Below are positions 274 through 53,255 of a stretch of DNA of 64,000 nucleotides, one piece after another; position 1 is the stretch's first letter, and every line of letters begins with the position of its first letter. The DNA comes from Eunapius fragilis (lineage: Eukaryota; Porifera; Demospongiae; Spongillida; Spongillidae): positions 6,554,307 through 6,618,306 of the forward strand of contig OY811981.1 in NCBI GenBank assembly GCA_963681505.1, written 5' to 3'. Made by a program: the position numbers and the translations under genes. The notes below the pieces were generated by a model that was given only the letters and a program-made list of their open reading frames with translations, was not told the origin of the DNA and did not search any database.

Positions 274-1953
274 ATGAACACAGATGCAACGGACGCACCT
301 ACATGGCTCGGGGGAATGGAGGACCTTAGGGCGTTGGCCGGATGTAGAACCGAAGAGGTTGTCAAGTTGCCACAGGTTGCCTGTGCCATAGCGACTCCAC
401 TCAGGGTGGCGGCGTGGGACAGAGAACTGGATAGGTTCCCTAATCGGGAGTTCGTTAAATTCCTTACTGATGGAATCACATTTGGTTTCAGGATAGGCTA
501 CAACAGGTCGGTCTGCTCCCTCGTCAGTGCCTCACGAAACATGTTATCGGCCGATGTTAACCCGTCTGTGATATCAGACTACCTGGACAAGGAAGTTCGG
601 TTGGGCAGAGTGGTAGGCCCACTACCTGGGGACACGGCAGTTCACATAAGCCGTTTCGGGGTGGTGCCAAAATCGAGTCAGCCGGGAAAGTGGCGCCTGA
701 TAATAGATCTGTCAGCTCCGGAAAACCATAGTGTGAACGATGGGATCGCCCCGGAGTCCTGCTCCTTGTCGTACACCACAGTTGATTGCGCCGCCGAGCT
801 GGTGCGTAGCAGGGGCAGGGGCGCTTTGCGGCTGGCAAAATTAGATATCGAGAGTGCGTACAGAATTGTACCCATTCACCCGGACGATCGTTGCGTGCTG
901 GGAATGAGATGGAAGGGCGCGATATATATTGATACATGTTTGCCATTCGGTTTACGGTCAGCCCCTAAGATTTTCACAGCTCTGGCGGATGCATTGGGTT
1001 GGATATTTACGCAGCACGGGGTTAGGGATGTCATTCACTACCTCGACGACTTCCTAATTGTCGGGGACCCGGGATCGTCCGAATGCAGCGTTGCGTTGAA
1101 CGTTGCACTGGAGTTGTGCGGACGTTTAGGGGTGCCGATCGCGGAGCAAAAACTGCAGGGCCCGACCACGTCGCTATCGTTTCTGGGCATTGAGGTAGAT
1201 ACAATGGCGATGGAACTCAGGCTCCCCCAGGAGAAGCTCGGTCAACTGAAAGTCATGATACAGGATTGGAATGCGAGAAAATCCTGTTCAAAGCGCGAGC
1301 TGCTGTCACTGATTGGTCGTTTGCAGCATGCGTGTAAAGTGGTGCGGTCGGGAAGAAGTTTTCTGCGTCGTATGATTAATTTGTCAACAGTAGCAAAAAA
1401 ACTGCATCACCACATTCGGCTGAGCAAGTCATTTAGGGCGGACCTGTCGTGGTGGTCGGTGTTCCTGGAATCCTGGAACGGGGTCTCTGTTCTCAACTGT
1501 GTAGTGGGGGGGCCCCCGGCATTCACTCTCACATCCGACGCCTCAGGATCGTGGGGTTGCGGAGCGTTTAGCTCTTCAGGCGAATGGTTTGCCTTTGAGT
1601 GGCCGCCTGCATGGTCGGTTGTTAATATAACGGCCAAGGAGTTGTTTCCACTGGTCGTCGCCTGTGCCATTTGGGGGGTTCAATGGCAAGGAAAAGTGGT
1701 TCGATGTCTGTGCGATAATGCAGCTGTCGTTGCCATCGTAAAGTCAGGGAGTAGCAAAGATAATTTAGTGATGCACCTGGTACGTACTCTCTTTTACTTC
1801 AGTGCCCGAAAAAATATCCATCTGTATGTGGAACATATCGCAGGGAGCTCGAATTTGGCTGACAGCCTGTCGCGAAATAATATCACATATCGAGAAATTG
1901 GCGGTCAAAAGGATTACGCGGTATTCGGTCATTGCGTAATTCGGTGTCCATAG
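274..1953 (+). CDS. DIRS-like retrotransposon reverse transcriptase / RNase H
   Basis: Uninterrupted 559-aa ORF from ATG. RT occupies about residues 125-310: a KWRLIIDLS block near 150, the LPFGLRSAPK block, and the catalytic YLDD box at 256-259 preceded by His. RNase H follows, with likely acidic residues D422 (TSDASG), E456 (AKELFP) and D481 (CDNAA), and a DSLSR tail. This RT-RNase H order without an aspartic protease, and the wording of the blocks, fits tyrosine-recombinase retroelements (DIRS order). Such elements encode a recombinase next to or overlapping RT; none follows here, so the copy is truncated or broken downstream. The ORF itself has no stop or frameshift, suggesting a fairly young insertion. 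A related recombinase lies at 9979-12255 but 8 kb of unrelated DNA separates them. Confidence 0.88.
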   Translation: MNTDATDAPTWLGGMEDLRALAGCRTEEVVKLPQVACAIATPLRVAAWDRELDRFPNREFVKFLTDGITFGFRIGYNRSVCSLVSASRNMLSADVNPSVISDYLDKEVRLGRVVGPLPGDTAVHISRFGVVPKSSQPGKWRLIIDLSAPENHSVNDGIAPESCSLSYTTVDCAAELVRSRGRGALRLAKLDIESAYRIVPIHPDDRCVLGMRWKGAIYIDTCLPFGLRSAPKIFTALADALGWIFTQHGVRDVIHYLDDFLIVGDPGSSECSVALNVALELCGRLGVPIAEQKLQGPTTSLSFLGIEVDTMAMELRLPQEKLGQLKVMIQDWNARKSCSKRELLSLIGRLQHACKVVRSGRSFLRRMINLSTVAKKLHHHIRLSKSFRADLSWWSVFLESWNGVSVLNCVVGGPPAFTLTSDASGSWGCGAFSSSGEWFAFEWPPAWSVVNITAKELFPLVVACAIWGVQWQGKVVRCLCDNAAVVAIVKSGSSKDNLVMHLVRTLFYFSARKNIHLYVEHIAGSSNLADSLSRNNITYREIGGQKDYAVFGHCVIRCP

Positions 1954-9978: not shown

Positions 9979-11042
9979 TTGAGTTTATTTAGAATTCAAT
10001 TTGAAATAAAAATGCAAGATGACCGCCGATGTATGGGCCATTTCTCCATATGTTCCACTATTCATTCGCCAGGTACCAACGGCGGCCACGAACGGGGTCA
10101 ACCCTACGCCAATTCCTGTCGAGGCGCGTCAACTCTTGCTGTCACAAGAGCACGATTGGACATCGGAGATATGGACGACGCTGTTGAGTTCTATTTCGCG
10201 AAAGGCTTAGCGCAGTCCACACAGAGGTCGTATAATTCCGGATGCCGGCGATTTGCCCTTTTCTGCGATACGTTCTTTTTACAGCCATCACCGGTTACGG
10301 AACATAAACTCTGTATTTTTACGGCGCATCTCGCTTCACAAAGACTGAAACACCGAACTATTAAGGTTTATTTGGCAAGCATTCGGTTTAACATCATTAA
10401 ACAGGGTTTGCACAATCCTTTTCTGGGGAATACAATGGAGCGGCTGGAGTATGTACTTCGCGGGATCAAACGGGAGGAAGCGGAACGGCAACCCGCGCCA
10501 ACAAGGCGGCGGCTTCCTATCACCCCGGACATCTTAATCAAATTGAAAGCGGTGTGGTCTACGAGGGCGGGAGAAGAGGCCGACATGAAGATGTTATGGG
10601 CGGCATGTTGCCTTGGGTTCTTCGCCTTTCTTAGGGCGGGCGAATTTACCGTTCCGTCCGATACGGAGTTTGATGAGGAGGTCCACCTCACTTGGAATGA
10701 CGTATCAATTGACGATCCCGGGTCACCATCGTTTCTGCGGGTGCATATAAAACAATCGAAAACAGATCCGTTCCGTGAAGGGACGTATCTGTATGTGGGT
10801 AGAACAGGAACTGAGCTGTGCCCTGTGGCAGCCATTCTGGAATACATGTGCCTTAGAGGACAGGGAAGAGGCCCCTTGTTTCGATTCAAGGATGGTAGGC
10901 CTCTCACTCGTCCCCGCCTCGTAGAAGCGCTGAGATCAGCGCTCAACGAAGCGGGAATAAATCAAGCCGACTATTGCAGTCACAGTTTCCGGATAGGGGC
11001 AGCTACGACGGCTGCGCAAAAAGGGGTCGAAGACTCCGTCAT

Positions 11043-12147
11043 CAGGGGCGGATACAGGAATTTGGAAGGGGGGGGTCTAATAATTATATTCACAAGGGGG
11101 CAGAGCCCCAGAAACCAACGCCTTTTTATTATATCAAGCTCAAAATTCTTCACAAACATGTGCAACAAATATAGTTCCTTACTACATGCACACAACACTC
11201 ATTATGAGACCATACATGCATGATCCCACAATACAATCATATCACAACCAGTTACATGTAATTTTCATCACAATGCACATTATTTACATTTACTTAGAAG
11301 ACAGAAATACATGTTACAGTTTAATGCATACAAATTATATTTACTAAGCCATGAGTGCTGAAAGCTTCTCGTCTGCCCATTTATACTACGGCATGGAAAT
11401 TTGTAGGTTGCAGCTGGTATGAAGTGCTTCTTTAGAAGGACATACATTTCATTATCAGTCAGGCTACGTTCTGACTTCAATTTAACCACCTTTCCAAAAT
11501 CTCCTGTCAAAATAACAGGGTCTACATCATTGTTTCCACGTATAGTTGGCGTTTTAATGAGTGCAATACCCGCGCTGTTTTCAGGTAAAGAAATTTGCTC
11601 GGTTTCTTGAATCTCTATAACAGCGTGTGGCTCGATTGCCTGCGTATGCTCGACCATATGGTTGACCACAGCTGCTGGCAATGCGGTAGCGCTAACTGTT
11701 ACAGCCATCGTTAGTGGTGTATCTGAGGTTTCGCTTGAAGAGCCACTAGCCTGATCTACATCGGCACCCGGGGCCGGGCCCTCTGTGGGGGTCGTGGCCG
11801 TGCCCGTAGAGACTCTACGTACACGACACAAGTATAGCGTAAATAGTTACATGCATGTATGATTAACAGGTTATAGAAGCAAGCATGGTGCAGAGAGATA
11901 CTTACCGATCCAAACTAAAATAATCAGTTAAATTGCCTTCTTTTTTCCTCGCTTTACGCTTTTCGCCACCTTGCAACGGAATCGTGCTCTTCGAACGCTT
12001 CATAATATTGGAACGTGTGTCAATTAATTGCTTTTAAAATTAATTTACATTGCTTTAATTATTCATACTTTGTTAATTATTCATAGTTCAATCGGAGCGA
12101 GGGGGGGGTCTTTAGACCCCCTAGACCCCCCCCTGGATCCGCCACTG
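11043..12147 (-). mobile_element. hAT-like DNA transposon, internally deleted, 5-bp target duplication
   Basis: Ends are CAGGGGCGGATACAGG on the left and, on the other strand, CAGTGGCGGATCCAGG on the right. Each is followed by a G run. GTCAT directly flanks both ends (11038-11042 and 12148-12152); removing the element and one GTCAT restores the recombinase frame exactly, so the boundaries are firm. Inside, on the minus strand, is the first part of an hAT-type transposase; the catalytic part is missing, so this is a non-autonomous derivative. Classical hAT elements duplicate 8 bp, so the 5-bp duplication is notable; the element at 27034 has the same feature. Confidence 0.88.
11280..12003 (-). 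pseudogene. hAT-type transposase, N-terminal exons only
   Basis: Exon 1 runs 12003-11906 from ATG: a basic N-terminus (MKRSKSTIPL) and a NLTDYFSL motif, then donor CG/GTAAGT. Exon 2 starts at 11814 after a GTACGTAG acceptor with matching phase. It continues through a Ser/Thr-rich linker to FPCRSINGQTRSFQHSWLSK, the block that precedes the TTF-type zinc finger in this hAT group. Immediately after this the frame degenerates and stops near 11280; zinc finger and catalytic domain are absent. It lies wholly inside the element at 11043-12147. Family assignment is from motif wording. Confidence 0.7.
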
Positions 12148-24289: not shown

Positions 24290-26556
24290 CTAACTATTGA
24301 GGTCTGCATACCCTGAACTACTGTCCCCAAAATACAAGCACACTGCAAGCATAGCAGTATTGGGAAACTTCCCTTTAAACAACTGCCCACCTGATCTACC
24401 AGGTCTGACCAACCACTCTGACAGTGGCAATGATCGAATGTCTGCATTAAAAGGTGCCCAACCTTCACCTTCTGACCACAGTAACGGCCAGAATGGGGCT
24501 GATTCCCAACATGGAACTACTAGTGTCCCATGGGCTTTACATGTCTCCATATGCCTTATCACTCTTGGTACAAGATAAGGGGGTGGACAACACCAGTCTA
24601 CTGTAAATGCATCTACTGCCTCTGTCCCATGGGATGCAAAGCGTGAGTTGAACCGCACCAGTTGTGCGTTATAAGATGATGCAAATCTGTCCACAGAATA
24701 TGGTCCCCACAATGCATTAAACATTGCAAACACCACAGGGTCTAGTTGCCAATCATCGTAGTCTACAATACGACTGACATAGTCGGCAAGTTGATTCTTT
24801 TCCCTGGGTATCCATTCTGGCTCTAGCCGAATGTTGTATTGTATACAAGTTTTAAACACTTTACAAGCCTCTACTTGTATGTGCAACTTAGCACTACCCA
24901 CTTGTAGAATGCGCACCACATTTTGATTATCAGTGAACCAACGTACCCTCAGATTGCTCAGCTTTTGTGCTATGGCTTCCAGTACCCTCCCCACTGCCAC
25001 TAACTCCCTCCACGTGGAGCTCTGCACAGCTTCATCAGGTAACCAATTACCCTGGGCCACATGCATACCATGCTCTACGGTGTACCCGCCATATCCAGTG
25101 TCACTAGCATCAGAGTACACACATCTCACCGCTGCAGGGCTATGCCATATAGGTTGTGAATTAAACTGATCAAAACACTCAGCCCAAAACCTTAACTCTT
25201 CCCCTGCATCCTGCGTGACGAGTAACACATCACACCATGCATGTCTAGATTCTAACAGGGCATACAATGCACGCGTTCTAAACCTGGCTACTGGGCCTAA
25301 TGCCAGACTCATGGATACAATTTTGCCAATCAGGCTAGCCACTGCCTTAGCTACCAGGCTAGATGTACCAATTGCTACCTTAAGGCTATGCTGCAATGCT
25401 TTCACTTTTCTTTCTGGGACAGAAATACTCCCTTCACTCAAGTTCAAATTGAACCCTAGCCAAACAAGCTCGTGAGTCGGCACCCATATTGACTTGGACT
25501 CATTACAAACCCAACCTGCCTTATCTAAAGTGTCCCTTACCCATGCACTAGATGCTTTTGCACTGCTCTCATTTCAAGAGGAAAAAATACTATCATCTAG
25601 ATACACAATTGCTTTAATGCCCTTACTGCACCATAAGCGGACTAAAGGACGCATCATCTTAGTGAACACATATGGAGCAGACGAAAAGCCAAATGGTAAC
25701 ACCACAATGTGTACGTAACCCCGCCCCATTCAAATCCGAGGTACTTACGATGATGCCGGGCTACATCAACATGGTGATATCCCGACTTGAGATCAATTGA
25801 AAACATCCACTCACCTTTCTCAAACATTGCCATTGCCACACGCAGATCTTCATATTTGAACTTTTGTTTCCACAGGAATCCATTAACATGTCTCTGATTC
25901 ACCACTAGTCGCTTCTTTCCTACCCCATTTCTGACTACTGATAGGGGGCTGCACACTACAGGGGTTTCCTTAGCCACTTCTATATATCCTCCTTTTTGTA
26001 ACTCCCACACTGACCCATTAACAAATTCCCTTTCCAGTAGTGCTGTACGCTGGTTAGGCCGGGAATATGGTGTAGGCAGCAAATAAAAGGGGATTATATA
26101 ACCATTTCTAACCGTATCTAATACCCATGGAGGCGCATGCAGCACCTGGTCCCAATACTCCACACAATTACGCAGTCTTCCCCTAACAGAAAATGAACCC
26201 GCCTCCCCTTCTTGCTCCTCCCAACACCTGCCCCACTGTCCCTCATCCTCACCAGCAACCATACCAGGTGTTAATTTTTTTTTTTCACATTCCCCACTGC
26301 TATGTGTCATATTCCCCATTACATCACTACTATCACACATGCTCTCATCAGCCATGTGCTTCTTTCCCTTGGCCAAGATACGCGCGGACTCCATCTGGCC
26401 TTCCCGCACCATCCGCGCCGTCTCGTTCTGCCCTTGACGCACACTTTTCAGTTCGTTTTGCAGTATCCGCGTGACGACGTCATTGCCAGATCCACTTCCG
26501 CTTGATGTGCCCGCCGTAGACCCACTTCCACTTGACGTGCTTGCCGCAGTCTCCAT
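24290..26556 (-). pseudogene. Ngaro-type reverse transcriptase / RNase H with frameshifts
   Basis: From ATG at 26556 the frame covers a Ser/Gly-rich N-terminus, then RT blocks (KKRLVVNQRHVN, WMFSIDLKSGYHH). A frameshift near 25715 moves the frame: LPFGFSSAPYVFTK and YLDD (plus positions about 25592-25603) lie in another frame. A TGA near 25577 with a further shift follows. The rest (25540-24290) holds RNase H (CVYSDASDTGYGG, then FTDNQNVV) and the element-specific C-terminal region (VDRFASSYNAQ to LVVPCWESAPFW). The motifs survive but the protein cannot be made in one piece. Confidence 0.85.
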
Positions 26557-26581
26557 TTTGTATTTCGCAGAAAGTTCACAG

Positions 26582-26743
26582 AAAGTTCACAGTCGTGCAC
26601 ATACACTTAGACTGAACTGTTAACCCCTTCCGCTCTATATATACCCCACCCACGTGGCCACCACGTGCTGTCCGACCAATTGCATTGGGAGGGAGCTTAG
26701 TTTCTGTCTAATTTAACTCCGTACAAACGACAGAAACGTGTAT
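26582..26743 (-). repeat. Ngaro terminal repeat A1
   Basis: Matches A2 at 23033-23194 over 162 bp. Marks the 5' end of the minus-strand element; the hAT-like host sequence starts at 26744. Confidence 0.9.
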
Positions 26744-27901: not shown

Positions 27902-30900
27902 ATGGCTGCGTGCGTGGTAAGTGCTCAAGACGGCGATGACTTTGAACAAAGTACTTACGAAAGCATAGTCACCACCCACCTGTCCGTCCCGGAGCAGATT
28001 TGGAAGCAGCTGGACAAGGCCCTGAATGCAGCAGCGTCTCGAGCTGAGAAGGAGGAAGTGTTTCGCGAGTATCTTGTCAGCATCTTCGGCAAGAAGATGA
28101 GCGAATTCATGCACAGTTCTGAAGGAGACCGTCAGAAGTGGGAAGCTTCCCGTAACAAGGATTATGTGGTAGTATCCACTTTAGCGAACAAGCATGGATG
28201 CAAGCACATCTTGGAGGAATACTTTCAGTCACAGGTGGACAAGATGCAGCCAGGCTCAGGGCTCCGGATGCAACCACTTGATGAAATCATGTGTGCCAAT
28301 TGCACTCCAATGATCGAGAATGGTGTCGCTGTGTGTGAGAAGAGAGGGACGATGGTCTGTTCAGGGTGCCGCTTGGTGAAGTATTGCTCTCAGAGATGTC
28401 AGAAGGAGCATTGGCCAGCACATAAGGTTGACTGCAAGTCGAGGTATGCTGAGACGGCCTGGCTGGAGGGCAGTAAGTACGATACGACTGCAGAGGATGC
28501 CAGTACGGAACGAATGCCCCAGACTGTGGATAGACAATTCAGTTCAAATGCGATCCAGTTTCCTTCCAGTGCCGCGAGCCTTCCAACACCATGCAATGCA
28601 TGCCTGGCTGAGAGTGGGGACCTGAGTGACATGGTGTATACGATACTGAGTGTTCCAGATGGATATGAGGGCGAGATCACCCTGCATCTCAACCATGCAT
28701 CACCTTACACAGCTTTCTGCAACCTGCTGTCACTGCTAGCCATGGGCACCCTCGGAGAGTTGAGTTGCGACATGCTGATACAATTGTGGTATTCAGTCGC
28801 GATGACTGGCGAACAAATGCTGAACATCACTCAAATGTGCATGAAGTTTGTTAAGGACTCTGAGGGAGAGGTGACGAAAGGTCTGTACTGTACATCTTTG
28901 CCCAAACTGCCACAAATCACGCTCACAGTCGACCTCGAGCCGAAGCATTGGTTCAAGATGGTCACCGAGAATACTTGGCAATCACCACGGCACATTGAAA
29001 AGTGCATGGAAGATCGGCGTAAGCACTTGTTCAGTCCTCAAGGCAAACAATATGCTGTTGAGATGTTCACTGCACTGTCCTCTCACCAGAGAGTCTCGTG
29101 GGACAACTTCACACGGCTGGGCATGCTCCTCCCTCTAGGAGCACTCATTGCACACCACACTGTGCAGAACCCATTCCTGTTCGATGTTAATCATTGCTGG
29201 AGGCCAGAGAGTCAACTTGATCCTCTACAGTGCTGGTCGAGGGCTGAGATAATTGCAGCAGGGGAGGAGTTTCGGGTACCCAGCAATGATATTTACGGTG
29301 CATTGTTCTTCCTTATTCGGCAGAAGCTCTCTGAGTGCATCAGGAAGCTAACCAAGCAGAGGTTTCACATCGTAGTCACCTGCTGTGAGCCAAGTGCCCT
29401 CGTGCATAGGCTCCAACAATCCAAGACAGCGATGCACTATATCTCAGGGGTGGACGCTACACAGCTGCAGTGTTCACATTCAGACAATCAGGAACTCTCT
29501 GCCCTCAGTGTTGGGGCTCTGAAGGAGATCATTCAGGGTGCAGGCCTACCATCAGAAGGATGCCTGGTAAAGAGTGATCTCATGGCTTGTGCTGCGCCAT
29601 CCAATCCTGGTAAGGATGTTTCTGCAGTGGACACAACATTGCCACCCACAAAACAACAACCCGATGAGGCAAGCGAGTGGAGCAGGTTCATAGAGGATCG
29701 AGCAAGTCTTGATCCTCCTGATATCCTTGCTGTCTGCTATCTCGCCGAGCTTGGCGAGATGAAGTGGATGGAAAAAGGTGTGGAGATGTTGATTCCTGAA
29801 TGCCTCGCCCTCTACGGCTGGCGTCAACTGTGTTGGTTTAGTCCTGAGAATGCACTGAGTGCCTTATCACACCTGCAGCAAGCAAAAGACATGAAGAATG
29901 CCAACGGGCTCCTTTTCTGGGGTTTGGCTATGGATAGTGCATACAGAAATGCCACTGACACTCGCTCGGAAGCATGGACCTGCTACTATGAGTCTGCATG
30001 CCTCGGAAAGCATGCTGCCATTTTTAATGTCGCACATGTCTTGGCAGCTCGCGGAGATCACAAACAGGCAGTTGGGTGGTGGAAAAAGGCGAAACAGCAT
30101 GGACCTTCGTTGTTTGAGCTGTATCGCTGTTACCATCATGGCCATGGCTGCACACAAGATGTCCTGAAAGCGAGAAAATACTTGCTGCAAGCTGCTGATC
30201 AAGGCTTTGGCCCTGCATGTGCTACCTTGAGTGAGTGGTATGGTTCTGGCTGGGAGAATGTGCTTCGTAAGAACCCAGAGAAACAAGCACATTGGTGCAA
30301 GCAGGCTACCATCTCATCAGAGAAGCATCCTCTGCATATCTATACACACCTCTTGCGGAACTTACTTGGGACAACAAATGCCACTCCAGCCTGGTGGAAG
30401 TCCCTAAGAGCAATGTTGGAATTGATGAAACTGAGTAGTGGAGGAACCAAGCCTGAGGGTGCAGTGAGTGCTAAAGTAGATAACATGTTTGACACATTGA
30501 AGTTCGCTTTTGAGGGAGCAGAGAAGTTTATGATGGAAATGAATCCAACACCATCTAATGCAGGATGCATATGTGACTTTGGTTCAACTCCACCGTATCA
30601 TTCATTTCTTCTGAGAGCAGAGAGCTTAGCCCTAACATCGGATGAACGGCTGCAGCTGCAGGGCATCGTGCAGGAAATCACAGATATTCTGACCCGCAGC
30701 AGAGTGATTGACTCAGTGGAAGTATGTGGTTCATATGGGAAAGGCACTGCTGTTAGTGGTTGTGCTGACCTCGACATGGTGGCGGTGACTGTGAAATGCT
30801 TTGAGAGCGATATGTACCTGTCCCTGCAGCACCATGTAGCCACTCTACTCAAAGACAACCTCAAGGTGGATTTAACATATAAGCCATTGGCTGTATCCTT

Positions 30901-33900
30901 CACATACAAGCATGTGGAGATCGATGTGGTACTAGCCAGCCCTAACATTGAGTCCCTTTCACAGTGTTACCTTCCACCACGGCCACGCTTCTTTCGTAGG
31001 CCCTCATTATCTGTTCAAGAGTGCGCCTTCCTTCGTGCACAGCCCTCACTGTTTGGTGCTGTTGTACGACTATTGAAGAACTGGCGAGCAAGTGCAGAGC
31101 ACTGGCCTCGTCGCAGCAAGCCACGTTCCTTTTTACTGGAGCTCATTGCATTAGCAGCAGTTCAGAAAGTTGATGTCCCGCAGTTCACTGAAGAAACTGT
31201 CCGCAATGCCTTTGTCACTTCACTTGAGTTGCTACTGCAAGTAATCAATGGCGATCTGAAGCTGTACTGGGTTGACAACTACCCTGAATATACCATCGAA
31301 TTTGAGAACTATGATGGGCCAATTGTGATGGATCCCGTCGATCCCACGAACAACGTGGGTGGGCTGCTTCAGATCCAGGATTGGCGTCCCCTGAGCCAGC
31401 TGGCTGAGCAGACCCTCATTGCCATAAGAGATCACAACCTTGTGCAGAGAGTCATCCATATTACACCAACTGCTGAGCAAAGTGTGTCTGCTATCTCTCC
31501 CCGGTATAGGTTTTCGTGCTTTGTTCTCAGGGCAGAGCAGTTTATGAGAGTTGGCAATCTGGAGGAAGCACTGGATGCCCTAGCAGCTGCATCGCAGATT
31601 GACAGCTCGAACATTAAATTGCAATACATGTGGCGTAAGTGCATCATACAGCTGTTTTTCGAAGAATGTGAGGCAAAGCAATCACCATTGTCAGAAGCTG
31701 AGTTGCTCTTGAGATTGAAGGACACTGTTATGGACTCAGAACGAGTGTCAAGATTCGGGAAGGAAGGGAAGAAAATGTTTGCCCAACCAGCGAAAGCACC
31801 CGATTTCATCTCCAAGGACGTGGGCGCATGCGAGGAGATGGACACCCCATTCTCGACCTACATACATTCACGTGATGAGGATGATAGCAACTCCTCAGAA
31901 GAGGAAGACATCCCGCAGATGGTGAAGCTGTTCCCTGACCCCGGTGAAGACGAGCTCTACACTCCACAAATCACCAGTGTAGTTTGGAAATCAAAATTTA
32001 AGGATGAATTGTACCATGCATGGTTGATGTTGAGGCAACTGACCGACAAGATGCCTTCGAAAGAACAGCGAGATATGTACACGAGGGCTAGTCTTCAGTC
32101 TGTGTTGGCATATGATGCGCTTTGTGTGGGCAAGGATGTTATTGGCCTTGACCGTATGACAGCTTCCATCCTGACAACAGCTCAAACTGTACAGCAGCCT
32201 AAGTTAAATGCCCTTGCCCTCGCAGCTGCTAAGCGAGTGAAGAGAGAAGCTTCTTCAGAGATGCAGGTCTTACTTCACTGTGGCCTCAGTCTGCAAGTGG
32301 CAGCCATCATTGTCCAAGTGCACATGTATGTGATAATGCACGCATGGGCCAAGGCTAGTGAAGCTCTGAAGCCTCTTATGAAACGAGATGACTTGTGGAA
32401 TCGAGCTGATGTTTGTTATTTTATTGGGAATAGCTTGTTCTGGACACAAGATTATGAAGCAGCTATGTTGTGGCACGAACGAGGGATCACAGCAGATCCC
32501 ACCTTCCGTATGAATCTCTGGGCACTCGGGTATGCAATGATTTACGCAAAGTCAACTGTTGAAGCCGACCCAGAGCAAAGGTCACACATCATGAAGACTG
32601 CAGAGAAGCACTTGTGGCAGTACATCAAGCAAGGGGTGCCAGAAGACAGAAACCGTTGTGATGCGATGTACGAGTTGGTCAATGTGGCTATGTTTTCATT
32701 GAATTTTCTGGAGGGTCATCACAGATTGGAGATGGCTATTGAGGCAGATATCAGGCGCACTCAGATCTACAATGTACCCAGCAATAATGGTACTAAGCAG
32801 TTGCTACTGGTGTATGGAACTAGAATGGAGCAGGTAGCAAAGGTGACTGGAGATATGAAAAAAGATGATCCTGAGAAAAATCTCTTTTTTGACACTCTGC
32901 GAACAAAACTGTGTGAAAATCCCCTCCTGATTACTGTTGATCGTGCAACGCAACTGAACAATGTGTCAAGTGTAGGCTTGCATACCATGAGGAATTACTT
33001 CTCTCAGATAATAGCTACATCGTTTTGGAGTGGCGACAAATCAAAGTCTGAATTAGCTGCTAATGTTCTAAAGAATCTGACAAAATGTGAAGACAGTGAT
33101 GACAGTGTTGAGAGGGAAGATGATGTGAACAAAGAGCAAGGGGAAAAGCAGCAGAAGGGCATGCCACAGATTGTGGTGGACTGCGAAGGATATGGCTATT
33201 TTCTTTCGTTGGGGGAAGCACTCAGGAGTGATTATGTTTCCACTGGCACAGTGATTACAATGAAAGGAGGCACGTACAAGGAAAAGATAGACCTTTGCAT
33301 TAAGCACGAACACCTCACCATAAGAGCAGAGAGCAGTAAAGAGAGGGTCATTATCAAGTCGTATGATGGGATCCAAGTGGAGGCCAATCACGTTACCCTG
33401 TCAGGGTTATCAGTAGACCTTCTGAGTCCCAAGGGTCACGACGGTGTAGAAGAACTATGTGGTCACGCCATCCATGTACGAACAGGCACAGCTGTGGTGC
33501 TGGAAAACTGCAGTGCTACTAGTGCGACAGGTGCAGCAATCTGTGTAGGGGACAGGGTGTGCTCTGGTGAGACCGAGGTCACTATGGTGATGTGCAACGC
33601 AAGATCGAGTGTCAGCAATGCTATCCTTTGCGCGGGTTCACACACCCAACTGCAGCTGCAACAGTGCGATGCCAGTCACTCCAGGAACGGGCTGGAGGTG
33701 CGAATGGGAGCCACGGCTTTTGTGAGAAGCTCACAGTTTTCTTGCAACAAGAATTTTGGCCTGTTTGTATGGCAGCATGCGAATGCAAAGACAGTTGTTG
33801 GGCCAGATAATGTTATCCAGGACAATCAAGGCTCAGGAGCCATGCTGGCAGCACGGGGCATCGTCTTTCATCATAACAAGGTCACTGGGAATAAGCGATT

Positions 33901-35203
33901 TGGGGTCAGTGTCGAGCCTGATCCCGCCCCTGGTTTCAAAGCTGTTAAGGTCAAGGTAGAAGACTGCGAACTCTCTCAGAATGGCTATGGTGGAATTGAA
34001 TTCTGCGGGGGAACATGTGGTGTCATCTCTGGCTGCCGCATAGAAAAGAACAATCATTGTGGCATCATGGTGGGCATGGGTGTGGAGAAGTTGAGCATTG
34101 CAGGTAACCAAATCCAAGGCAATTACTCATTGCAAGATACTGGCATCGAGATGCATGGCAGGGCAGAAGTGGCAAACAATAACGAGTTCAGCAACAATCA
34201 GATGACTCGTGAAAAAGCAAAAGAGTTAGTCAAGGCAATAGACTTTATCACGTTGAACAACTGCCATCAAAAAAAGGAAGTAATTCAGAGGAGCCATGAA
34301 AATTTAATGTTCAAAAAGACAGCTGCTCACCTGTTTGGACGACTTTGGTGTGCCAAATGTGGTGCTGAAGTCGGGCCTCGCAAGAAGATGGTGCCTTGTG
34401 TCAAATGCAATGAAGTGGTGTACTGCTCCACGCAATGCCTCAAAGCAGATGCCGATCAGCATCAAGAGTCGTGCCATCCAGTGCCATTCTACAATACTCT
34501 TGGTGGAGAGGCTATCACACTTGATGCAGATGACCTGCAGTACATGCAAGCAGAGCGAGAGAATGCAGGCATGGTGTGTGCCAACTGTGATGCCATCGCA
34601 AACAATGTGCATTTCAAGAAGTGTGCTGCATGCAAGCTTGCTACCTACTGTTCAAAAGAATGCCAGAAAAAGCATTGGCCTGTCCACAAAACTGTATGTA
34701 AGAGTGCACCCATGGAATCTCGTAGCAAGAAGACGAAGAAGGCGGTATCGCTATCATCGTCTTTTGTCTCTGTAAAAGCCACCACTCAGTATCCATTAGA
34801 AGCTAAGCATACGTCCAGGGGAGGCACATACCTTAATACATATGTGGGTCCTGATGGCAGTGTGGTGACTGGGATTGTAGACCCTGTGGGTGTGTTTCGG
34901 TTGTCGAGTGATGCAGTCCCAATGGTCATCAAGATACAAGGAAATGAGGATGCCCTCATCAAGAAAAATACGTTCCTTCAGTTTTATAATGAGGATCGAA
35001 GTGTGAGTGGGTGGATTCAAGCTTCTATGAATACCACAGAGGAGTTTAAAGATGCTTACACACTCATATGCGACACAATCATGCAGCTTGGGGATGCAGG
35101 TCGGTTCGGGGGCATGAAAGGTTATTTCGAAGCGATAGTTCAAAGGGACATGGAGGTGAAGGTGAATTGTGGGAATCTGGTTGCTGGAAACATTGAGTGG
35201 TGA
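27902..35203 (+). CDS. Giant multidomain protein: MYND, Sel1-like, OAS-like nucleotidyltransferase, TPR-like, beta-helix, MYND, MYND
   Basis: Single uninterrupted ORF of 2,433 codons from an ATG with G at -3 and +4. Domain order: MYND zinc finger at 131-178 (CANC to HKVDC); helical region; Sel1-like repeats about 670-805; OAS-family nucleotidyltransferase about 905-1170; TPR-like repeats about 1200-1245 and 1480-1550; right-handed beta-helix about 1750-2100; MYND fingers about 2150-2192 and 2226-2267; unrecognised C-terminus. The nucleotidyltransferase has GSYGKGT (943-949), metal-binding D956/D958 (DLD), a third acid D1008 (VEIDVV) and the OAS C-terminal helix block (RLLKNW, then LLELIALAA), so it looks catalytically competent. 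OAS enzymes make 2'-5' oligoadenylates, often on double-stranded RNA; MYND fingers bind proline-rich partners. No signal peptide or membrane segment. The neighbouring genes are intron-rich, so an intronless frame this long is odd. AATAAA at 36261 is a possible polyadenylation signal. The overall role is unknown. Confidence 0.9.
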   Translation: MAACVVSAQDGDDFEQSTYESIVTTHLSVPEQIWKQLDKALNAAASRAEKEEVFREYLVSIFGKKMSEFMHSSEGDRQKWEASRNKDYVVVSTLANKHGCKHILEEYFQSQVDKMQPGSGLRMQPLDEIMCANCTPMIENGVAVCEKRGTMVCSGCRLVKYCSQRCQKEHWPAHKVDCKSRYAETAWLEGSKYDTTAEDASTERMPQTVDRQFSSNAIQFPSSAASLPTPCNACLAESGDLSDMVYTILSVPDGYEGEITLHLNHASPYTAFCNLLSLLAMGTLGELSCDMLIQLWYSVAMTGEQMLNITQMCMKFVKDSEGEVTKGLYCTSLPKLPQITLTVDLEPKHWFKMVTENTWQSPRHIEKCMEDRRKHLFSPQGKQYAVEMFTALSSHQRVSWDNFTRLGMLLPLGALIAHHTVQNPFLFDVNHCWRPESQLDPLQCWSRAEIIAAGEEFRVPSNDIYGALFFLIRQKLSECIRKLTKQRFHIVVTCCEPSALVHRLQQSKTAMHYISGVDATQLQCSHSDNQELSALSVGALKEIIQGAGLPSEGCLVKSDLMACAAPSNPGKDVSAVDTTLPPTKQQPDEASEWSRFIEDRASLDPPDILAVCYLAELGEMKWMEKGVEMLIPECLALYGWRQLCWFSPENALSALSHLQQAKDMKNANGLLFWGLAMDSAYRNATDTRSEAWTCYYESACLGKHAAIFNVAHVLAARGDHKQAVGWWKKAKQHGPSLFELYRCYHHGHGCTQDVLKARKYLLQAADQGFGPACATLSEWYGSGWENVLRKNPEKQAHWCKQATISSEKHPLHIYTHLLRNLLGTTNATPAWWKSLRAMLELMKLSSGGTKPEGAVSAKVDNMFDTLKFAFEGAEKFMMEMNPTPSNAGCICDFGSTPPYHSFLLRAESLALTSDERLQLQGIVQEITDILTRSRVIDSVEVCGSYGKGTAVSGCADLDMVAVTVKCFESDMYLSLQHHVATLLKDNLKVDLTYKPLAVSFTYKHVEIDVVLASPNIESLSQCYLPPRPRFFRRPSLSVQECAFLRAQPSLFGAVVRLLKNWRASAEHWPRRSKPRSFLLELIALAAVQKVDVPQFTEETVRNAFVTSLELLLQVINGDLKLYWVDNYPEYTIEFENYDGPIVMDPVDPTNNVGGLLQIQDWRPLSQLAEQTLIAIRDHNLVQRVIHITPTAEQSVSAISPRYRFSCFVLRAEQFMRVGNLEEALDALAAASQIDSSNIKLQYMWRKCIIQLFFEECEAKQSPLSEAELLLRLKDTVMDSERVSRFGKEGKKMFAQPAKAPDFISKDVGACEEMDTPFSTYIHSRDEDDSNSSEEEDIPQMVKLFPDPGEDELYTPQITSVVWKSKFKDELYHAWLMLRQLTDKMPSKEQRDMYTRASLQSVLAYDALCVGKDVIGLDRMTASILTTAQTVQQPKLNALALAAAKRVKREASSEMQVLLHCGLSLQVAAIIVQVHMYVIMHAWAKASEALKPLMKRDDLWNRADVCYFIGNSLFWTQDYEAAMLWHERGITADPTFRMNLWALGYAMIYAKSTVEADPEQRSHIMKTAEKHLWQYIKQGVPEDRNRCDAMYELVNVAMFSLNFLEGHHRLEMAIEADIRRTQIYNVPSNNGTKQLLLVYGTRMEQVAKVTGDMKKDDPEKNLFFDTLRTKLCENPLLITVDRATQLNNVSSVGLHTMRNYFSQIIATSFWSGDKSKSELAANVLKNLTKCEDSDDSVEREDDVNKEQGEKQQKGMPQIVVDCEGYGYFLSLGEALRSDYVSTGTVITMKGGTYKEKIDLCIKHEHLTIRAESSKERVIIKSYDGIQVEANHVTLSGLSVDLLSPKGHDGVEELCGHAIHVRTGTAVVLENCSATSATGAAICVGDRVCSGETEVTMVMCNARSSVSNAILCAGSHTQLQLQQCDASHSRNGLEVRMGATAFVRSSQFSCNKNFGLFVWQHANAKTVVGPDNVIQDNQGSGAMLAARGIVFHHNKVTGNKRFGVSVEPDPAPGFKAVKVKVEDCELSQNGYGGIEFCGGTCGVISGCRIEKNNHCGIMVGMGVEKLSIAGNQIQGNYSLQDTGIEMHGRAEVANNNEFSNNQMTREKAKELVKAIDFITLNNCHQKKEVIQRSHENLMFKKTAAHLFGRLWCAKCGAEVGPRKKMVPCVKCNEVVYCSTQCLKADADQHQESCHPVPFYNTLGGEAITLDADDLQYMQAERENAGMVCANCDAIANNVHFKKCAACKLATYCSKECQKKHWPVHKTVCKSAPMESRSKKTKKAVSLSSSFVSVKATTQYPLEAKHTSRGGTYLNTYVGPDGSVVTGIVDPVGVFRLSSDAVPMVIKIQGNEDALIKKNTFLQFYNEDRSVSGWIQASMNTTEEFKDAYTLICDTIMQLGDAGRFGGMKGYFEAIVQRDMEVKVNCGNLVAGNIEW

Positions 35204-36840: not shown

Positions 36841-52133
<15,293 letters not shown>

Positions 52134-52253: not shown

Positions 52254-53255
52254 TCAAAGTTGCGTACAGAGTACCTCAGCCATGAATTCACTGAACATAT
52301 CTGCTCCGGACTCCTTCCACCGTGACGCTACCTCCACGGGGGCCCCCGTGGCTTCGCTAATCTGCGTGTAACCGGCTTCGTCAGTGGCTACTTTCAGCTC
52401 CTCGTATTCGTCTAGGTGCTCGCCGGCATCGGAGAGCAGCATCAGCGTGGCCACCGCGTCGTAGAACACGGGGGCGACGTGCCAGTTGTCGTGGAGCATG
52501 AACTGCCAGAACGGAAAGAAATAGCTGAAGGTTTGGACGAGCGCGGCGGTGACGTTGTTTGCGGACCGGCATCCCAGAAAGACCTTCTTGGAAGCCGACG
52601 GCGTGAGGAAGGCGTCGATGCAGGTGTCCAGCGGAGCCAGCCTCACGCTCCACCCAGCCCGCATCACCTGGTCTGCGCACCGCGGGCACAGCACGACGTT
52701 GTACTCGGCGCTGACCGTGGGCGAGTAGAAGTAACCCAGTCGGATGGCGCCCGCCATCGCCGTCACTCTGGCCTTGCGGACGACCCCCGGGTAGTCACGG
52801 AGGAGCCGCGGGAAGTTTGTGAGCGGGCCGAGGGCGAGGACCTCTACGGTCTCCTCGGAACCGAGGATCACCTCGGCCATCTTTGCGACCCCGTCTCCGT
52901 GAACGCCGCCTGCGTAGGAAGACAGCGGGAAGTCGCTCGCCCAGTGGAACAGGGGGCGCTCCGTAACGTGTTCCGTCGGCACGCCTATCCCAATCGGGAT
53001 GTGGCTCGCCCCGGAGAGCGTCAGCAGCTTGGCGGCGACCGCTGCCCTCGCGCGGGTGTTGTCGCTGCACGTGACGAGGAGCCTCACGTCCAGCTCGCGG
53101 GACAGGAGAGCGAGCGCTATTGCCGGGAAGTCATCGTGAAACGATCCTATGTCCGTGTCGATGATCACTGGAGTGCGTCTGCCTCCGCCAGTGCGCGCGT
53201 CTTTGCAGCTTGTACTCAGAGTGACTGCCCAGAGCAACAGGATCGCTTTCCACAT
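52254..53255 (-). CDS. Inosine-uridine preferring nucleoside hydrolase family, secreted or lumenal, intronless
   Basis: Uninterrupted 333-aa ORF from ATG, close to family length. Residues 1-17 form a hydrophobic signal peptide ending in TSC. The Ca/ribose-binding motif is at 33-42: D33-T-D35-I-G-S-F-H-D41-D42, a variant of DTDIGTDVDD in which one Asp is replaced (SFHDD). A GPLTNF block and the C-terminal FYDAVATL, probably the other metal Asp, also fit. These enzymes cleave the N-glycosidic bond of nucleosides to base plus ribose. The gene lies between the 3' ends of ACOX3 (120 bp away, convergent) and MEIOB (168 bp, same strand). It is much richer in G+C than its neighbours and has no intron, so lateral transfer or a young retrocopy is possible. 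A 290-codon antisense ORF here is a composition shadow. Catalysis is plausible, not certain. Confidence 0.88.
   Translation of the reverse strand: MWKAILLLWAVTLSTSCKDARTGGGRRTPVIIDTDIGSFHDDFPAIALALLSRELDVRLLVTCSDNTRARAAVAAKLLTLSGASHIPIGIGVPTEHVTERPLFHWASDFPLSSYAGGVHGDGVAKMAEVILGSEETVEVLALGPLTNFPRLLRDYPGVVRKARVTAMAGAIRLGYFYSPTVSAEYNVVLCPRCADQVMRAGWSVRLAPLDTCIDAFLTPSASKKVFLGCRSANNVTAALVQTFSYFFPFWQFMLHDNWHVAPVFYDAVATLMLLSDAGEHLDEYEELKVATDEAGYTQISEATGAPVEVASRWKESGADMFSEFMAEVLCTQL

Follow-up and report, generated by a model that had tools for sequence, protein, structure and literature searches.

A protein of 2,433 residues, encoded by one uninterrupted reading frame in the sponge Eunapius fragilis, may be read from its sequence as an OAS-superfamily (CD-NTase type) enzyme set in a giant docking scaffold and as belonging to a multigene family of sponges; we give this reading a probability of about 0.5. 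Enzymes of the OAS kind produce nucleotides that act as an antiviral alarm. The gene is real, coherent and conserved. Its OAS-family enzyme is probably active and, in an expanded sponge family, probably controlled by the docking modules rather than by dsRNA. The sequence analysed, called here the window, is a 64,000 nt stretch of contig OY811981.1, and all positions are counted within it.

Reading frame and domain architecture

Translation of the frame (27902-35203, plus strand) contained a sole stop, the terminal one, and the stop-free run around it extends over 2,491 codons, while none of 100 versions of the window resampled by a first-order Markov model had a run longer than 304; the one 2,433-codon frame reported in the first-pass annotation is thus borne out. 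The gene had also been called intronless, which holds for the reading frame, as 22 predicted frames of relatives (2,405-2,539 aa) align over 99-100% of the query; this outcome is about frames and not about transcripts. Apart from the gene itself, no further copy, whole or partial, turned up in the window with tblastn or blastn.

From the N-terminus, the order of parts is MYND, DUF4470, an unassigned region at residues 301-640, Sel1/TPR repeats, nucleotidyltransferase (NTase) palm, OAS1_C, a TPR-like region, a beta-helix, two further MYND fingers and a conserved C-terminus (Table 1).

Table 1. Features of the 2,433-residue protein and their positions in the window
Feature	Residues	Positions	Strand	Evidence
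Single open reading frame	1-2433	27902-35203	+	Translation, Markov resamples, relatives
MYND finger 1	131-178	28292-28435	+	Pfam; Cys/His columns
DUF4470, domain also in DNAAF3	228-300	28583-28801	+	Pfam, 4.3e-7 in whole protein, 4.9e-8 in piece
Sel1/TPR-like helical repeats	641-800	29822-30301	+	Sel1 at 743-768 and TPR_2 at 706-735, both below Pfam cut-offs; Sel1-repeat PDB chains
NTase palm (bounds by eye)	~896-1030	30587-30991	+	Profile; Pfam on family pieces; fold matches
GSYGKGT motif	943-949	30728-30748	+	Conserved in relatives
DLD metal pair (D956, D958)	956-958	30767-30775	+	32/32 covering relatives
Third catalytic Asp (D1008)	1008	30923-30925	+	32/32 covering relatives
OAS1_C, with DPVDPTNNVGG	1042-1172	31025-31417	+	Pfam 7.5e-11; PDB profile match to OAS2, OAS1
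TPR-like region, weak TPR at 1208-1240 and 1502-1535		31523-32506	+	Below Pfam cut-offs
Right-handed beta-helix	~1746-2110	33137-34231	+	Beta_helix 1.6e-19 and NosD 9.2e-10 in piece
MYND finger 2	2150-2191	34349-34474	+	Pfam; Cys/His columns; C2150, C2153 by sequence reading
MYND finger 3	2226-2266	34577-34699	+	Best MYND stretch in Pfam; Cys/His columns
Conserved C-terminal region, 149 aa	2285-2433	34754-35200	+	Mean pairwise identity 0.79

With the whole protein as query, the Pfam models zf-MYND (6.3e-27, three stretches), Beta_helix (4.5e-17), OAS1_C (7.5e-11), NosD (1.8e-8) and DUF4470 (4.3e-7) all scored above their curated cut-offs. The domain list proposed earlier therefore stands for the three MYND fingers, the beta-helix and OAS1_C; for its Sel1/TPR part the Pfam models stay below the curated cut-offs (Sel1 at 27.7 bits against 30.7, the TPR models likewise), and it is PDB chains named Sel1 repeat protein that match the protein (6ork, 1.8e-8).

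DUF4470 was absent from that list. Passages of PMC8565470 give it as one of two domains that make up DNAAF3, a factor for the assembly of dynein. Another factor in that process, ZMYND10, is a MYND protein. These parallels speak for a MYND/DUF4470 scaffold of ciliary or chaperone type, in which the OAS domain would have a non-immune housekeeping role, as does the conservation of DUF4470 to the same degree as the NTase (see below). The partner of DUF4470 in DNAAF3, DUF4471, did not appear at E<=5 in a search of residues 183-650, in which the HMMER filters drop most weak matches, and so many near-copies of the gene would hardly be expected if it encoded an assembly factor with a housekeeping task; we consider such a role quite improbable. 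The same residues 183-650 had no match at E<=10 among PDB sequences, and their structure model (pLDDT 42.5) had a best fold match of E=0.64, which we took as uninformative. For the C-terminal region 2285-2433 no Pfam family appeared at E<=5, and its best PDB match (E=0.2) was not believed.

The domain set is already in print, briefly; the architecture is unusual, but it has been noted once before. A paper on freshwater sponge hosts and their green algae symbionts (PMC7882143; PeerJ 2021) mentions in passing an Oas1-like gene of E. muelleri with TPR, three MYND fingers, OAS1 and nucleotidyltransferase domains, a probable pectinesterase domain and two beta-helix regions, a content that our protein shares. 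The view that no described protein has this order is not supported, as the same set of domains is described there, though the passages concerned give no order. The comparison is one by description: the few sentences on the gene in those passages do not deal with DUF4470, domain order, family size or active-site conservation. Among the literature matches listed (from a body of text largely without subscription journals, bioRxiv and supplementary files) there was no other such gene; the matching passages of PMC8476169 deal with something else.

The beta-helix piece had no match among PDB sequences at E<=0.1. A Pectinesterase match in it (0.0002) reached 20.7 bits against a cut-off of 27 and covered positions 2-68 of the 298 in the profile. 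The catalytic residues of pectinesterases lie further along the profile. This match bears on the idea, raised in passages of PMC7882143, that the beta-helix acts on algal cell-wall polysaccharide, by which the protein would chiefly serve symbiont handling or recognition. Expression of the E. muelleri gene, reported there as lower in symbiotic sponges 24 h after infection with algae (a single gene from a single experiment, called at two-fold and p<0.05), agrees with this idea, as does the presence of a Pectinesterase match at all; with that match below cut-off and confined to the start of the profile, we find the idea quite unlikely.

The nucleotidyltransferase core

From the letters alone, the first-pass annotation claimed an OAS-type nucleotidyltransferase whose catalytic residues are intact; Pfam, PDB profile, fold matches and motif columns support this. 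OAS1_C (PF10421) scored 42.4 bits against a cut-off of 19.9 in the query and was present in 6/6 family pieces. A six-row profile matched OAS2 (1.4e-16), OAS1 (3.2e-10 to 5.2e-10), OASL (4.5e-9) and CdnC (1.3e-4) among PDB sequences. The residues G943, S944, K947, D956, D958 and D1008 are identical in all 32 relatives that cover them, one of the 33 relatives (P0034) beginning downstream of the catalytic motifs, and the only varying position of GSYGKGT is Tyr945 (Tyr in 22 relatives, Phe in 10).

The check by structure pointed the same way, as all 50 listed fold-match rows for the NTase named Pol-beta-type proteins (NF45/NF90, found in these rows, we take to belong to this fold class), though the model is poor, with a mean pLDDT of 49.4 and a pTM of 0.33. 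By fold, the palm of the model is no closer to OASL than to TUTases and polymerases; TUTases and RNA-tailing enzymes are matched at a Z similar to or higher than that of OASL. One could suppose from this fit that the NTase adenylates or tails RNA or protein held by the scaffold, instead of making a diffusible second messenger, the more so as the usual job of MYND, TPR and Sel1 modules is protein docking. Yet the palm is followed by OAS1_C, DPxDPTxNxGG lines up with OAS in the PDB profile alignment, and by sequence OAS and CdnC match best while a TUTase trails far behind (E=0.73), so a modifier of macromolecules appears unlikely to us.

The dsRNA contact residues of human OAS include K199, T203 and K204. 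In an alignment with porcine OAS1, for this segment alone, FLRNRPTK corresponds to FLRAQPAL in the family consensus and to FLRAQPSL in the window, so that in the window the Arg of the contact segment is kept while Thr is replaced by Ser and Lys by Leu. This Lys, following Thr in FLRNRPTK, is presumably human K204.

A family of sponge genes and its conservation

Protein searches with the NTase region or the whole length each gave 34 proteins, the query included. In the whole-length search the 33 relatives were 70-88% identical to the query; 22 of them have at least 2,400 aa, and 11 are shorter. Relatives in sponge, which the first-pass annotation had suggested looking for, are thus present, and they include two proteins named as from E. 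muelleri, Em0015g402a (= EMCRGX_G024202) and Em0015g1305a. The candidates of these searches were proteins 0.55-1.75 times the query length that shared exact words with it; absence outside this set is therefore weak evidence. A search with the NTase alignment, scoring only the 7,996 candidates that shared most words, added eight shorter family pieces of 195-530 aa at 81-86% identity, some of which are perhaps broken copies. The six-row NTase alignment did not reach the marine sponge OASs, and in prokaryote genomes and viral contigs it produced 111 and 72 pattern matches, respectively, with 0 confirmed by tblastn.

Several relatives share a contig size: six at 338450, four at 529675 and three at 813495. 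In the FastTree tree the four of 529675 make one group, the pair of 566507 makes another next to them, the pairs of 418502 and 595584 also group, and the relatives of 338450 and 813495 are scattered within one larger clade. Shared contigs, judged from their sizes, together with grouping in the tree therefore suggest local duplication of the gene family.

Mean pairwise identity per segment was computed among 23 full-length rows. Among the segments measured it was highest for DUF4470 (0.89), followed by the NTase palm and OAS1_C (0.88 each); the three MYND fingers had 0.79-0.82, the beta-helix 0.80, the repeat regions 0.76-0.82, residues 301-640 and the C-terminus 0.79 each, 179-227 had 0.78 and 1291-1400 had 0.77. 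The lowest values (0.62-0.71) belonged to the N-terminus and to 801-895, 1641-1745 and 2111-2145. The zinc ligands are kept almost throughout: in finger 1, C134 is Cys in 22/28 and Ser in 6/28 covering relatives, H170 is kept in 27/28 and the other eight Cys/His in 28/28; in finger 2, C2166, C2169, C2175, C2179, H2187 and C2191 are present in 24/24; in finger 3, C2241 is kept in 27/28 and the remaining ligands in all covering relatives. Judged by these columns, the protein appears to be kept as an enzyme and zinc-finger scaffold.

No hypervariable module of the kind expected for an arms-race recognition part was seen in the segment identities, nor any repeat-period signal in the variability of the beta-helix. 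The repeats and the beta-helix are not the variable parts, so the proposal that they are the ligand-binding part of the protein gains nothing from variation.

One may ask whether the gene is simply a recently amplified sequence, intact by recency or gene conversion and with no selected function. DIRS-type-like frames lie ~1.3 kb upstream of it, and some relatives are short pieces, and 11/33 in the whole-length search are under 2,400 aa; these observations would fit such an origin. Against it, 22 frames have kept a length of 2,405-2,539 aa while their proteins are 74-88% identical to the query, and conservation is focused on catalytic and zinc residues, which makes a sequence devoid of function a very unlikely explanation.

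Relation to known enzyme systems

Animal OASs are mostly stand-alone or repeated OAS units. With OAS1, OAS2 and OAS3 the sponge protein shares the palm with GS and three Asp, OAS1_C, and a Lys after RLL/RLV in the pocket helix, a residue with a role in the OAS pocket. It differs from them in that its single OAS unit is embedded among other modules in a protein of 2,433 residues, and in having Leu for the Lys after the Thr of FLRNRPTK; vertebrate OAS2/3 are described as repeated OAS units in passages of PMC6307210.

The bacterial CD-NTases of CBASS are also similar, CdnC being matched by both profile and fold, with NCBIfam CBASS_cyclase_a at 4.5e-11 and the best of the PADLOC cyclase models at 1.3e-10; however, the scores of 42.4 and 26.5 bits compare with an NCBIfam cut-off of 200, and the sponge domain is found inside a giant animal protein. 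The OAS superfamily is nested in bacterial clade C CD-NTases, according to passages of PMC10732462.

A third likeness is to the cGLRs, in which a nucleotide-signalling NTase is joined to interaction repeats, with fusions to TPR, ankyrin and death domains, and which have radiated in some animals (passages of PMC9980059). In contrast to the sponge protein, cGLRs belong to the Mab21 superfamily and do not have OAS1_C (passages of PMC10732462), and the passages of PMC9980059 contain no MYND or beta-helix fusion. Consistent with this difference, the Mab21 domain (PF03281, cGLR superfamily) was not listed at E<=1 in the protein or in the 6 family pieces.

Predicted function

For an OAS-type enzyme in a docking scaffold we infer a signalling role. 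The NTase would polymerise ATP, and perhaps other NTPs, into 2'-5'-linked (perhaps 3'-5') oligonucleotides; partners on the MYND fingers, Sel1/TPR repeats and beta-helix, not dsRNA, would set its activity, and the product could signal locally when microbes or symbionts are met. The lower expression of the E. muelleri gene 24 h after infection with algae, for all that it comes from a single experiment, fits such a signal. We think that dsRNA may not be the main switch because one of the contact residues is Leu here and because marine sponge OASs function without dsRNA (passages of PMC6307210). Both 2-5A and 2',5'-heteronucleotides are made in vivo by two marine sponges, whose OASs can use several NTPs (passages of PMC2852836). 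According to passages of PMC6307210, the sequences of four sponges yielded no RNase L; thus a target of 2-5A would be something else.

A more specific reading, which we hold to be unlikely, is that sponges have a large family of giant OAS receptors and that scaffold gating replaces dsRNA gating in them: partners of the MYND, Sel1 and TPR modules or ligands of the beta-helix would trigger synthesis of 2'-5' (hetero)oligonucleotides, and the product, through a receptor other than RNase L, would tune immunity and algal symbiosis, as NLR families do elsewhere. Tandem and segmental duplication of many families is widespread in E. muelleri (passages of PMC7385117), and for this reason gene expansion says little about immunity. 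A family of many copies, in which an intact OAS core sits in a docking scaffold, is a place to ask what switched OAS on before interferon and RNase L, and it bears as well on the use of the 2',5'-linked nucleotides accumulated by some sponges (PMC2852836).

Other features of the window

Rfam (gathering scores) and ARAGORN gave no match across the window. Upstream of the gene, at 24290-26586 on the minus strand, there are frames with weak matches to reverse transcriptase, RVT_3 and Dam methyltransferase, all below Pfam cut-offs, in an arrangement that we take to be like that of DIRS-type retroelements. A 559-aa frame at 274-1953 (+) contains a reverse transcriptase domain (RVT_1, E=1.1e-13), and a 403-aa frame at 10012-11223 (+), which matches tyrosine recombinase (phage integrase) weakly and below cut-off, possibly comes from a mobile element. 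Downstream of the gene, G-rich degenerate direct repeats occupy 37389-37998, with units of ~33-56 nt, many of them with ATGTCC followed by a G run, and an uninterrupted 333-aa frame at 52254-53255 (-) has a match to inosine-uridine nucleoside hydrolase (E=4.3e-28).
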